This document shows positions 1,656-14,303 of a stretch of DNA of 32,188 nt, in pieces. Numbering within the stretch: position 1 is the stretch's first letter; each line of letters begins with the position of its first letter. The position numbers and the translations under genes are program-made. The DNA lies in contig WQWL01000023.1 in assembly GCA_009785345.1 (NCBI GenBank), forward strand, positions 1 to 32,188. Reading direction: 5' to 3'. A model generated the notes under the pieces. The model had not been told where the DNA came from and searched no databases. It worked only from the letters and a program-made list of their open reading frames with translations. Source of the stretch: Oscillospiraceae bacterium. GTDB lineage: Bacteria; Bacillota; Clostridia; Oscillospirales; Oscillospiraceae.

Positions 1656-1690
1656 ATTACAGTTTTCGTGTATAATTGTAATAATGAATC

Positions 1691-1845
1691 AAGGAGTTTG
1701 AATAAACTCAAACAAGTGCACTTACACACGCAATGATGTGCCAATTTGCTCTCCCGGCGGGAAACAGCAAATTAATGCACGAAATGACCATCCCTTATAT
1801 CATGGTTGTTTGTGACTAGGCATTGCGAAAGGAATGGTCATAAAT
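1691..1845 (+). repeat. Structured leader element, copy 1 (before lepB)
   Basis: This is a roughly 150-nt element that recurs before pcp on the other strand (13104-13254). It contains three inverted repeats: GTTTGA/TCAAAC (1696-1701 with 1708-1713); a nested stem GTGC + AATTTGC with GCAAATT + GCAC (1738-1749 with 1767-1780); and ATGACCATCCCT (1784-1795) with AGGAATGGTCAT (1830-1841), which has one mismatch here. The right arm of the last stem contains the lepB ribosome binding site AAAGGA (1828-1833), so folding would hide it. A TATAAT at 1671-1676 lies upstream, but I see no convincing -35. A short reading frame at 1737-1820 is shared in part with copy 2. The element could be a dispersed repeat or a cis-acting RNA. 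Confidence 0.75.
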
Positions 1846-2622
1846 ATGAATATAAATAACTCGACACAGAATATGAAAACCGATATTTTCAATCCTGTGA
1901 GTTACAATGAAATTATGGTGGATCATGCTATAGAGCAAGCTATGGGGCAAGGTAGTGAGTATGATGATGTTGAGTTCGAAACTGAAACTCATAGTGATGA
2001 ACAAAGTGTTGTTGAACGAGATATAGCTTACGATAACAGAGTAAGAAATGATTCCAAAACTATTAGTCAAAAAATGAGATTAGAACTTTATGACTGGCTT
2101 CAATGTATAGTAACAGCCGTCATTTGTGGTGTTCTAATTTTTATTTTTGTTGGCAGAACAATTGGTGTTGACGGAGTATCAATGCTATCTACGTTGAGAC
2201 ATAATGATAGAGTTATAATATCAAACTTGTTCTATACACCGAATAACGGTGACATTATTGTATTCGAGTCATCATCTGAGCGATTTGAATATCCTCTTGT
2301 TAAGCGTGTGATTGCGATTCCCGGACAAACCTTGGATATGAACTTTGAAAACGGCGATGTTATTGTTGATGGCATCGTAATTGATGAACCATACATTGAT
2401 GAAATAACGACAGCGAGGCATGATTTTACAGGACCTGTTTATGTTCCAGATGGTTACGTGTTTGTTTTAGGCGATAATAGAAATCGCACAACTGACAGCC
2501 GTAGTAATGAAATTGGTCTCGTAGACACAAGGTATATACTGGGTAGAGTTATATTTGTATTAATACCGGGACAAGATTCTGAGAGTCAAAGAGATTGGTC
2601 CAGATTTGGTATACCTGAATAG
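1846..2622 (+). CDS. lepB: Signal peptidase I
   Basis: A membrane-anchored serine/lysine protease that removes Sec signal peptides outside the membrane. I place the start at 1846 rather than the in-frame ATG at 1834. The same leader before pcp and the metallophosphoesterase cannot initiate at the 1834-equivalent position. The 258-residue product has an acidic cytoplasmic tail of about 85 residues, a single membrane helix (about 87-106), then VSMLSTL with the catalytic Ser112, YPLVKRVIAIPG with the catalytic Lys153, and the signature LGDNRNRTTDSR (208-219). The usual SMxPTL has Ser in place of Pro, and the acidic N-terminal tail is much longer than in SipS of Bacillus. rbgA begins 13 nt after the stop, so the two are probably co-transcribed. 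Translation is likely influenced by the structured leader at 1691-1845. Confidence 0.95.
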   Translation: MNINNSTQNMKTDIFNPVSYNEIMVDHAIEQAMGQGSEYDDVEFETETHSDEQSVVERDIAYDNRVRNDSKTISQKMRLELYDWLQCIVTAVICGVLIFIFVGRTIGVDGVSMLSTLRHNDRVIISNLFYTPNNGDIIVFESSSERFEYPLVKRVIAIPGQTLDMNFENGDVIVDGIVIDEPYIDEITTARHDFTGPVYVPDGYVFVLGDNRNRTTDSRSNEIGLVDTRYILGRVIFVLIPGQDSESQRDWSRFGIPE

Positions 2623-12458: not shown

Positions 12459-13103
12459 TTAGTGTGTTTCGCCAGCGAGACCTGAAATGTCCTTTTCGTA
12501 TTTGCATGTCGCTTCTATTGCATATTCCAAACCTTTTGCAATTGTTTCTGCGGACATTGCGGGAGTTCCATCTGGTCTGTCTACAACTTGCTCAGTCGCA
12601 AATGGTACATGTATAAATCCGCCACGTATCTTGGGGTACTTGGTCTCAATTAGGTGTAGCAGTCTGTACATGATGTCATTACACACGAACGTTCCTGCCG
12701 TGTATGATATGCTTGCCGGTATTCCATTTTCTTTTATCGTTTTCACGATTGCCTTTACCGGAAGTGATGAGAAATACGCCGATGAACCACCATTGATGAT
12801 TGGTTCATCGGATGGCTGCTGATTTTCGTTATCCGGAATTCTGGCTTCAGCCAAATTTACTGCTATTTTTTCAATCGACATGACTGACCTGCCACCTGCT
12901 TGACCGACACATATTACTGCATCCGGCGAGTGTTTTTCTATCAATTGTTCCAGAATTACACCACATTTTCCGAATACAGTAGGAACTTCCTCTTTTACTA
13001 TTTCTGTCCCGGCTACTTTATCAGGAACCAGTTTGACTGCTTCAAAAGCAGGATTTATTTTGTCCCCACCAAATGGGTCGAATCCTGTGACTAAAATTTT
13101 CAT
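12459..13103 (-). CDS. pcp: Pyroglutamyl-peptidase I
   Basis: A cytosolic cysteine peptidase (family C15) that removes N-terminal pyroglutamate from peptides. The 214-residue product starts MKILVTGFDPFGG. The catalytic set is intact: Glu78 in SIEKIAVN, Cys141 in AGTFVCND and His165 in GGFIHVPF. The start at 13103 is preceded by AAAGGA with a 13-nt spacer, because the gene is fed by the structured leader element (13104-13254). The C-terminus is typical for the family. Its place beside DUF969/DUF979 repeats an arrangement known from streptococci and other Firmicutes. Confidence 0.96.
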   Translation of the reverse strand: MKILVTGFDPFGGDKINPAFEAVKLVPDKVAGTEIVKEEVPTVFGKCGVILEQLIEKHSPDAVICVGQAGGRSVMSIEKIAVNLAEARIPDNENQQPSDEPIINGGSSAYFSSLPVKAIVKTIKENGIPASISYTAGTFVCNDIMYRLLHLIETKYPKIRGGFIHVPFATEQVVDRPDGTPAMSAETIAKGLEYAIEATCKYEKDISGLAGETH

Positions 13104-13254
13104 ATATTATGACCATTCCTTTCCCAGTGCTCTGTCACAAAACAACCATGAATGAGGAATGGTCATTTCGTGCATTAATTTGCGGTTTCCCGTAAGGAGA
13201 GCAAATTGGCACATTCCCACGTAAGTTTGAATTTATTCAAACTTGTTTCTCCTT
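13104..13254 (-). repeat. Structured leader element, copy 2 (before pcp)
   Basis: Read on the minus strand, this copies the lepB leader nearly base for base from GTGCCAATTTGCTCTC through AAAGGAATGGTCATA. It ends two bases into the pcp start context. Inverted repeats: AAGTTTGAAT/ATTCAAACTT (13223-13232 with 13235-13244); the nested AATTTGC/GCAAATT stem; and a perfect 12-bp stem AGGAATGGTCAT (13155-13166) with ATGACCATTCCT (13109-13120, plus-strand reading). The arm next to pcp contains its ribosome binding site. An AAGGAG (plus-strand positions 13249-13254) directly abuts the M29 stop. The two copies differ by two compensating single-base indels and scattered substitutions. Confidence 0.78.
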
Positions 13255-14247
13255 TTACCAAATATCAGGTTCTGCGACAACTATCACGCCATCTTCCATT
13301 ATTACTCGATTGTCTGCGTATATGCTCGGTTCACGAAATACTATGTCAAAATGTCCGTTTGCCTCAAATTCGCCGCCCAACGCATGATTTCGCCCAAAGC
13401 CAATGTGTGCTGTTCCGTACGCGGATTCATCCTCTATATAGCATCGTCCGTCACACTTAGAATAAGTATTTAGACCAATACCAAATTCACTCACATTGTA
13501 TATCCGTTCATCGGAGAAACTTTTTAAGTACTCATCGAGTGCCATTCCAAACTCATTTTGCTCAATATCTACAATTCTTCCTGAATCTAAGCGTATGCTA
13601 AATGGAGTTTGAACCTTACCGAGGTATCCGAGTGAACCATCGACAATCCCAACACCTGAACTTTGATCTTCTTCAACAGCCACATATACTTCGAAGCTTG
13701 AGGATGTAAATCCTTTGTTGTCTTTTGCTCTGCCGTTGAAGTATGATCCTTTGCGACCTATCTTACGAAATCTTAGATCAGTGCCACTACGTGTTTTGAG
13801 ATGTATATATGTCGATTCATTGATGTACTTAAGCAACATTTTTGCCATGAAACGGGCTTTGTCGGTATTCATCGTCAAAAATTTGTATTCCAAAATAGAT
13901 CGTCCGTCATTTGTTGCCATCGGAAGCGACAGAAATCTTGAGCCGGAGCGCACAGCCTGCTTTACAACTTCTGTTGTAACCAACGAGTAGTGCGTTGCAC
14001 CAATGATGATGCTATGGTTTTGCATGAGTACGGCGAGTTCATCAAAATACGGTGACAAATCTTGTGAGTACTCTCCCGGCACTACACGTATTTGTATGTT
14101 GGCACCGAGTGCCTGTGCGTATTTACTAACTTCCTTCATCTCATCGTGGTGTTGAAGATCAGTTATGATAAGCATGGATTCACCGGGTCGTACCTGCATC
14201 CATTTGTCAACAACGATTGAAACACCTCGTCTAAAATTTTTGTTCAT
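13255..14247 (-). CDS. M29-family metallo-aminopeptidase
   Basis: A 330-residue relative of the leucyl aminopeptidase/aminopeptidase T family (COG2309, M29). The C-terminal half holds the metal-ligand pattern: Glu in SEFGIGLN, Glu residues in CYIEDESAYG, then TAHIGFG, GGEFEANGHFD with His and Asp. It is shorter than thermophilic AmpT (about 410 residues), as is usual for this sub-branch. I start at ATG 14247 (MNKNFRRG). The longer frame to 14268 reads into the hairpin arm. It lies between DUF979 and pcp, so a role in intracellular peptide trimming is a reasonable inference. Some COG2309 members act on non-peptide ring substrates, so the substrate is open. Confidence 0.82.
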   Translation of the reverse strand: MNKNFRRGVSIVVDKWMQVRPGESMLIITDLQHHDEMKEVSKYAQALGANIQIRVVPGEYSQDLSPYFDELAVLMQNHSIIIGATHYSLVTTEVVKQAVRSGSRFLSLPMATNDGRSILEYKFLTMNTDKARFMAKMLLKYINESTYIHLKTRSGTDLRFRKIGRKGSYFNGRAKDNKGFTSSSFEVYVAVEEDQSSGVGIVDGSLGYLGKVQTPFSIRLDSGRIVDIEQNEFGMALDEYLKSFSDERIYNVSEFGIGLNTYSKCDGRCYIEDESAYGTAHIGFGRNHALGGEFEANGHFDIVFREPSIYADNRVIMEDGVIVVAEPDIW

Positions 14248-14255
14248 ATGCACCC

Positions 14256-14303
14256 ATGGTAGCCACATTATTTCTGGACAGTTTCTTGGTGTGTGGCTAC
14301 CAT
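14256..14303. repeat. Inverted repeat carrying a 16-bp motif shared with the window's right end
   Basis: ATGGTAGCCACA (14256-14267) and TGTGGCTACCAT (14292-14303) are perfect 12-bp arms around a 24-nt loop. The loop contains TTATTTCTGGACAGTT (14268-14283), the reverse complement of 32069-32084. It sits between the DUF979 stop and the M29 start. It has terminal inverted repeats like a very small non-autonomous element, but no target duplication was recognised. It may also act as a transcription attenuator in the operon. Confidence 0.65.

Follow-up and report, generated by a model that had tools for sequence, protein, structure and literature searches.

Results

Two structured leaders precede lepB and pcp

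The window analyzed here, a stretch of 32,188 nucleotides, comes from an Oscillospiraceae genome (G000; 3.51 Mb, 237 contigs, 86% complete). It carries genes for a signal peptidase I (lepB) and a pyroglutamyl peptidase (pcp) on opposite strands, and each of them is directly preceded by a copy of the same structured repeat (Table 1). The initial annotation had described these leaders as near-identical. When we aligned the two copies with short flanks, we found a mean column identity of 81% and long exact blocks (e.g., GCAAATTAATGCACGAAATGACCAT), and since about 80 copies were recovered from the genome (see below), there is no doubt that the leaders are real. Both copies contain three inverted repeats (P0, P1, P2) in identical order and both end at the start codon of their gene, as had been read from the sequence. 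The predicted fold of copy 1 had a z-score of −2.51 (1 of 200 dinucleotide shuffles was as good) and that of copy 2 a z-score of −4.52 (0 of 200). In both leaders the last stem contains the Shine–Dalgarno (SD)-like motif GAAAGGA. Its arms in copy 2 (ATGACCATTCCT/AGGAATGGTCAT) pair perfectly over 12 bp and the corresponding arm of copy 1 (ATGACCATCCCT) involves one mismatch, which agrees with the earlier description. No Rfam family reached its gathering score over the whole window, and a permissive Rfam scan of positions 1600–1900 gave sub-threshold matches only (best E 0.17).

The intervals originally assigned to the leaders (1691–1845 and 13104–13254) contain the repeat, but their first bases appear to belong to the host. 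From our reading of the sequence, the 5′ boundary of the repeat is formed by the motif AGTTTG, which starts at 1695 on the plus strand and at 13243 on the minus strand. The motifs AAGGAG (1691–1696) and CTCCTT (13249–13254) look like the SD sequences of the host genes, and the variation of the last three nucleotides before the ATG resembles that of a host spacer.

Table 1. Positions of the two leaders, their structural parts, and the adjoining genes in the window
Feature	Position	Strand	Evidence and remarks
Host −10-like TATAAT upstream of lepB	1671..1676	+	Also at element-free sites (G009, G002, G011, G018), 15–20 nt before the lepB SD
Host SD AAGGAG of lepB, now 5′ of the element	1691..1696	+	Last two bases overlap the element's AG; four element-free orthologues with SD 2–7 nt before the lepB ATG
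Copy 1, element (1695–1842) plus 3-nt spacer (1843–1845), before lepB ATG (1846)	1695..1845	+	CM match 1695–1848, 123.5 bits (copy in the training set of the model)
P0 hairpin, copy 1	1695..1713	+	Covariation
P1 hairpin, copy 1 (GTGC...GCAC)	1738..1780	+	Covariation
Predicted SD-sequestering hairpin P2, copy 1	1784..1841	+	Folding, covariation
Alternative hairpin, copy 1 (1778–1791 with 1802–1814; one T fewer than consensus)	1778..1814	+	Mutually exclusive with P2 and outer P1
Element-borne SD-like GAAAGGA, copy 1	1827..1833	+	Sequence; 121/132 copies with AAAGG or GAGAGG close to the 3′ end
lepB (signal peptidase I) behind copy 1	1846..2622	+	Peptidase_S26, E 2e-31
Copy 2, element plus spacer before pcp ATG (13103–13101)	13104..13243	−	CM match 13101–13243, 161.3 bits (training copy)
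P0 5′ end, copy 2 (AGTTTG)	13238..13243	−	Sequence, HMM
P1 hairpin, copy 2	13170..13212	−	Folding, covariation
Predicted SD-sequestering hairpin P2, copy 2 (12 bp, perfect)	13109..13166	−	Folding, covariation
Putative host SD AAGGAG of pcp, 5′ of the element, just past the stop codon of the upstream ORF	13249..13254	−	Sequence; pattern over 73 copies
pcp (pyroglutamyl peptidase) behind copy 2	12459..13103	−	Peptidase_C15, E 5e-76

The ORF directly 5′ of pcp (13255–14268) encodes, by the look of its sequence, an M29-type aminopeptidase. Without the element only about 15 nt would separate it from pcp, and thus insertion seems to be tolerated inside an operon. Most copies contain an ATG of their own (ATGGTCAT; 1834–1848 in the window), which abuts the SD-like motif and, because of the spacing of 12 nt, is in frame with the downstream ATG of the gene. 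Initiation at this codon could add an N-terminal MVIxM extension, and the ORF listing starts lepB there. The P1 loop of class A copies (e.g., about 1749–1755) contains CTCTCCC, which is complementary to SD sequences of the GGAGAG type, and in the centroid fold of copy 2 this region is paired with the host SD. This motif, which is not present in the other subfamily, might mask the stranded host SD.

Copy number and distribution

A full copy of the element comprises about 140 nt, which form the three hairpins P0, P1, and P2, with GAAAGGA located within the last of them. BLAST, a covariance model (CM), and nhmmer put its copy number in G000 at about 80. When we used copy 1 without the ATG as BLAST query (40 of 116 candidates scored), we obtained at least 52 matches, at least 40 of them at E below 1e-8. 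With copy 2 there were at least 59 matches, which added more copies. The CM was built from 38 full copies and gave at least 73 matches at E<1e-3 and at least 110 at E≤10 among the 150 of 2188 first-look candidates that were scored; two matches of equal score on contig ends (C7, C219) may represent a single copy. When the fetched loci were searched with an nhmmer HMM (E<0.001), G000 had 81 distinct copies, and another 58 were distributed over 23 further genomes. With this length and this number of dispersed copies, the element is a short non-coding multi-copy sequence, as MITEs are.

Among 149 genomes, 28 (including G000) gave a match at E≤0.01, and the per-genome counts are lower bounds, with 21 candidates scored for each genome. 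Besides G000, the carriers comprise 14 genomes of the same genus (out of 18 additional ones) and one genome each from 13 further genera of the family. For seven of the 28 genomes (G008, G013, G018, G020, G039, G083, G089) the best E-value was above 1e-5 and these assignments are less certain. An exact 20-base pattern gave no match in viral contigs and a single one in a named genome collection; this match in Bacillus aerolatus is not accompanied by the rest of the element, and by our estimate about one such match is expected by chance. Distant blastn with copy 2 against plasmids and phages gave no match. In these searches the element was seen only in one bacterial family, which by our reading of its gene content resembles Firmicutes.

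Three distant copies (L116 in G075, L118 in G062, and L122 in G039) have kept the P0–P1 order and the P1 motif GCCATTTCCTCGCCCC..GGGGCAACCGGAAAT, and their P2 is quite different; L118 was judged from the alignment strands only. The distant copy of G075 is followed by no clear gene. These three copies may form a separate branch of the family or stand close to its ancestral form.

Position relative to the start codon

To describe the position of the element, we used the 132 copies with a 3′ end (7 of 139 hits that do not have one were left out). In 110 of them an ATG follows exactly 13 nt after GAAAGG, and some ATG is found 11–15 nt after this motif in 123. Since CM and HMM contain the ATG and favor copies that carry it, this set is biased to some extent. 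We therefore also inspected the 52 copies at loci that had been fetched with ATG-free BLAST queries, which were placed inside these loci by a consensus that includes the ATG. Here, the ATG was at exactly 13 nt in 39 copies and at 12 or 14 nt in 8. In the remaining five it was absent: one of these copies is truncated, one carries ATA, and each of the other three is the upstream copy in a tandem or near-tandem pair. The accumulation of copies before start codons, which the initial annotation had named as support for its interpretation, was thus observed in both sets, and a random scatter relative to gene starts was not apparent in what was examined.

An ORF of at least 50 amino acids started between −3 and +11 nt of the expected position in 120 of the 132 copies (ATG, GTG, TTG, or ATA allowed), and the ORFs found behind the copies run in the same direction as the element. 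The motif AAAGG or GAGAGG was present near the 3′ end in 121 copies. We inspected seven G000 copies without an intact ORF immediately downstream and found that some of them precede frameshifted or interrupted genes; the remaining ones may be off-target or decayed. At two loci of G000 (L160, contig C14 from about 36936; L164, contig C6 from about 21980) the ORF stops soon after the start codon of the element and other sequence follows, which at L160 lies between the element and the gene and looks like another repeat or insertion.

At position −1 before the ATG, a T was found at a frequency of 0.67 in 39 element sites vs. 0.26 in 113 native sites, suggesting a preferred (A/T)ATG target. With this bias, some of the spacer could be element sequence or could reflect a target preference.

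Insertion between the host Shine–Dalgarno sequence and the ATG

Occupied and empty orthologous sites were compared between species, among others for lepB, cysS, era, and aspS. At the element-free lepB loci of G009, G002, G011, and G018, the TATAAT is followed by the SD after 15–20 nt and by the ATG after another 2–7 nt. In the window, the gap between TATAAT and SD is 14 nt and the element lies between SD and ATG. In G009, 12 nt separate the upstream stop codon from the ATG of cysS, where G000 has a 5′-truncated copy. In G002, the upstream gene appears to overlap the start of era, another site that is occupied in G000, and aspS is free of the element in G009 and other genomes. According to these comparisons, the element has entered the sites on the 5′ side of the start codon, and at lepB it did so behind the SD of the host. 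Since all genomes compared are different species, the empty sites do not fix the junction to the base. At era, G010 carries an element of another subfamily, and G005, G004, and G007 have apparent remnants (by eye); these observations indicate that one start codon was probably hit repeatedly.

To find out how common a stranded host SD is, we started from 83 copies with an intact left end and set ten aside as tandem by pattern (L160 perhaps wrongly). A host SD match of at least 5 nt preceded P0 in 48 of the remaining 73 copies, compared with 11, 13, and 13 in control windows shifted by 22, 44, and 66 nt and a shuffle mean of 24.0 (sd 4.0). The length of the host SD showed no significant decrease with divergence (rho 0.15, p 0.20). 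When the element was removed on paper, the distance between SD and ATG was 4–14 nt in 47 of 49 copies with an SD (19 and 21 nt in the other two), which is close to the SD spacing of native genes. For comparison, 38 of 67 native starts with an SD had it at 4–21 nt (28 at 5–11 nt) and 29 at −3 to +1; we take the latter to be mainly in-element ATGs. Where copies are arranged in tandem, the second, newer copy lies directly between the 3′ end of the older one and the ATG. Among 64 copies, we found no duplicated target site that extended over 2 bp or more. A concordance of one nucleotide between the left base and W was seen in 51 of them and also follows the subfamily.

The persistence of a host SD at natural reconstructed spacing in many copies would also be expected if the element were cut out of the transcript or skipped by the ribosome during initiation, with the host SD remaining in use. 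We consider this extremely improbable. With about 140 nt the element is too short for a group I or group II intron core, no helix joining its two ends was predicted, which led us to reject both splicing and bypass, it carries a conserved SD-like motif beside the ATG, and G000 gave no match for a reverse transcriptase.

It is also conceivable that insertion is unspecific and that only insertions just before a start codon survive selection. An insertion between SD and ATG at any other distance could abolish translation and be lost, and copies elsewhere are somewhat under-seen because the CM and HMM contain the ATG. However, many copies should then be located at neutral sites (3′ intergenic, antisense) and few candidates were seen there. 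Moreover, 110 of 132 copies agree in their spacing to the base, whereas the spacing of native SDs varies by several bases, position −1 is biased, and the start codon of era carries elements of two subfamilies in two species (by eye). Survival alone is therefore a quite improbable explanation.

Conservation of the RNA structure

To explore whether the hairpins are conserved, we scored their pairs on two alignments. On 38 copies of G000, 93.9% of the cells of P0, P1, and P2 were paired, and 10 of 31 pairs showed changes on both sides (shuffle mean 2.8; slid controls 2–5). On 63 distinct rows from relatives, 93.8% of the cells were paired (slid controls 33–40%) and both-side changes were found in 30 of 31 pairs (slid controls 14–21), with 207 both-side-changed cells (shuffle mean 35.5; slid controls 25–55). 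The absolute figures lean towards this structure because the alignment of the relatives was fitted to it. These alignments indicate that P0, P1, and P2 covary strongly, and the compensatory changes that had been proposed as a check were found. In P0, the whole sequence changes between lineages and the hairpin is kept. The motif GAAAGGA in the 3′ arm of P2 is conserved.

RNAalifold predicted for the 38-copy alignment P0, most of P1, and the inner part of an alternative helix rather than P2. The alternative helix, which is not part of the CM, is incompatible with P2 and outer P1. Its 14 pairs were about 94% paired in G000, with both-side changes in 1 of 14. Among the relatives, 84.8% of the cells were paired (slid controls 32–53%), 27 cells were changed on both sides (slid 8–19), and the covariation score was 0.166 (slid 0.030–0.064). 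The number of both-side-changed pairs (10 of 15) was no better than in the slid controls (5–10; shuffle mean 6.0, 7 of 500 as high). The alternative helix is well kept, as indicated by percent paired, changed cells, and covariation score, and the compensatory evidence is weaker than for P0, P1, and P2. In the distant copies of G012, G018, and G014, all three strands change together (by eye).

Minimum-free-energy folding of 77 copies favored the state with the hidden SD (mean −42.6 vs. −37.6 kcal/mol with the SD open). Opening the SD cost 5.0 (sd 3.4) kcal/mol, compared with 3.1 (sd 2.1) kcal/mol when the upstream part was shuffled (200 sequences from 40 copies), and the mean probability of an unpaired SD was 0.24 for the 77 copies. 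The loop of the alternative hairpin could still pair with the SD. A leader peptide was considered and rejected: several copies have an open MCQ...MHEMT frame, others shift the frame or stop early in P1 (by eye), and thus it is the structure rather than the frame that looks conserved.

Downstream genes and relationships between the copies

In G000, 67 proteins encoded behind the element have a length of at least 50 amino acids, and 50 of these were scanned with Pfam. Matches were obtained for 44, which belong to about 40 different families, and six had none. The genes behind the element (names are our reading where Pfam gives only a domain) include era, cysS, aspS, a second class-II tRNA ligase, topoisomerase, ribF, hprK, scpB, ATP synthase A chain, a carboxyltransferase, lepB, moaA, queA, thiamin pyrophosphokinase, PRPP synthetase, DAHP synthase, SelA, MFS, several ABC permeases, a pilus/secretion ATPase, PilM, sortase, a histidine kinase, LytTR, and others. 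Neither Pfam nor the comparison of orthologues revealed a functional coherence. Among 120 downstream proteins (67 from G000, 53 from relatives) there was only one pair of close orthologues in which both genomes carry the element (G016/G004, 92% identity), together with five more distant pairs. The nearest relative of a copy was located in the same genome in 69 of 82 cases, whereas label shuffles gave 32.3 (sd 5.4; maximum 49 in 1000). This clustering indicates lineage-specific amplification, which is not expected of a conserved regulon.

One of the two interpretations offered by the initial annotation, a cis-acting RNA with its own regulon, does not agree with the spread of the downstream proteins over so many families. 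A vertically inherited riboswitch or protein-binding leader would account for the strong covariation, the SD inside a stem, the alternative pairing, and the fixed position before start codons. However, the genes share no common pathway, orthologues in sister species do not carry the element, the copies cluster by genome, only one close orthologous pair was found with it in both genomes, and the apical part of P1 does not show the conservation expected of a ligand pocket (by eye). Because of the element-free sites and the unrelated downstream genes, it was discarded as primary reading and appears very improbable. The other interpretation, a mobile repeat that donates a translation-initiation region, is well supported by the element-free sites, the copy number, the genome-specific clustering, the unrelated genes, and the SD within the repeat, which is presumably the one used.

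Search for a mobilizing enzyme

To identify possible mobilizing enzymes, we scanned 13 genomes each for Y1 transposases and for reverse transcriptases (PF00078); G000 is, as mentioned, 86% complete. Y1 transposase gave three matches in G000 and one each in the carriers G004 (below the cut-off), G009, and G016, none in the carriers G010, G005, G002, G006, G013, and G018, and two to three in the non-carriers G001, G003, and G011. PF00078 was matched in the carriers G006, G013, G016, and G018 and in the non-carrier G003, and no match was found in the carriers G000, G010, G005, G004, G009, and G002. Since neither family tracks the copies across the 13 genomes, mobilization by IS200/IS605 elements (including REP/RAYT) or by a reverse transcriptase was rejected. 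No autonomous (longer, coding) copy was found among the fetched stretches; two half-hits (L172 and L228 of G016) were considered as autonomous copies and look like truncations.

The hairpins might serve only the transposition of a mobile repeat as single-stranded DNA, any effect on translation being incidental. P0 and P2, which are separate palindromes and not inverted to each other, could be DNA hairpins, and the sequence of P0 is subfamily-specific, like transposon ends. However, AAAGGA is unchanged where the 5′ arm no longer matches and the motif is kept in most copies (see above), placement at the start codon in sense orientation is hard to explain without a role in translation, and the carriers G010 and G005 have no Y1 transposase. 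On balance, we regard such a DNA-only function as unlikely.

Discussion

The genome comparisons document insertion at four genes, a fixed position before the ATG, genome-wide spread, and indifference to the function of the genes. We consider it likely that the leaders of lepB and pcp belong to a mobile, non-coding (judged by eye) repeat of about 140 nt, which lies in sense orientation, normally exactly 3 nt before an ATG, brings its own SD, and forms an RNA leader with two folds. According to this model, the element would typically insert behind the SD of the host gene, and its own SD (GAAAGGA), as judged from its conservation, most likely takes over initiation. The strand GCAC-RAAATGACCAT would be shared by two mutually exclusive folds. 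In one of them it would complete P1 and P2 and hide the SD. In the other it would pair with the strand that directly follows it in the transcript (ATGGTYGTTTTGTGC), and SD and ATG would be free. The pairing potential for both folds and its conservation are apparent from the alignments, and we infer that the leader switches between them.

The alternative hairpin can form first because it is fully transcribed before the SD strand appears. Once this strand has emerged, it would compete for the same partner by branch migration, so that early loading of a ribosome would keep the gene on and a late ribosome would find the SD shut. With such co-transcriptional switching the element could land on essential genes without silencing them. 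We infer from these considerations that it functions as a mobile, two-state translational leader and that it is a lineage-amplified repeat aimed at translation starts rather than a regulon. Tentatively, we suggest that it might represent a new class of selfish elements, which would recognize an SD plus (A/T)ATG, insert at a fixed distance of 3 nt upstream, survive even on essential genes because they supply a co-transcriptionally switching, self-regulating ribosome-binding site (RBS), and rewire the translation of about 80 genes in one genome; this is quite conceivable but we do not yet favor it.

If the model is confirmed, it will be of interest how a non-coding element finds translation starts (via the DNA sequence, the transcription bubble, or the initiating ribosome on the mRNA) and how bacteria cope with a transposon that assumes control of initiation at core genes such as era, cysS, aspS, and a topoisomerase gene. 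The element would then constitute a natural portable translational switch and an example of RNA regulation that is spread by transposition and not by selection on a regulon.

In the open-access literature, to which our search was directed, we came across no family of repeats that is directed at start codons with base precision and provides a structured RBS. As a small dispersed repeat, the element has MITE-like traits, and its RNA function is predicted. The Rickettsia palindromic elements are also small mobile repeats that involve coding genes and respect the frame, but the account consulted places them in-frame inside ORFs (PMC10969869), whereas our element inserts before the start codon. The beta-proteobacterial repeat element BRE of Bordetella (about 90 bp, up to 29 copies per genome) is another small multi-copy repeat; it is mostly intergenic, overlaps ORF ends, or lies inside ORFs, and no fixed placement at start codons is described in the parts of the source used here (PMC3110155). 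BOX, RUP, and SPRITE of Streptococcus pneumoniae resemble the element as short structured repeats with tens of copies, which are partly co-transcribed with their neighbors and able to influence expression (PMC3049150, PMC10969869). They are over-represented between convergent genes, and the available portions of these papers mention neither a fixed distance to the start codon nor a placement between SD and ATG with an own SD (PMC3049150, PMC10969869). Target duplications are reported for BOX and RUP (PMC3049150, PMC10969869), and none of 2 bp or more was seen for our element. Correia elements and other MITEs are likewise small, multi-copy, presumed non-autonomous, and often located upstream of genes; Correia elements are said to carry promoters (PMC10969869), whereas our element supplies a translation-initiation region instead. 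Neither a target duplication (≥2 bp) nor a parent IS was found for our element.

In translational riboswitches and other SD-sequestering leaders, the hairpin that hides the SD and an alternative helix have one strand in common, which changes from one to the other. The element differs from them since no conserved ligand pocket and no coherent regulon were seen and since the leader itself is mobile. The riboswitch-controlled group I intron of Clostridioides difficile is reportedly a large self-splicing ribozyme that assembles an RBS on splicing. Unlike this intron, the element comprises only about 140 nt, is present in many copies, and no catalytic core was seen in it. Both are structured, are located upstream of a start codon, and control the access to the RBS, which in the case of our element is a prediction.
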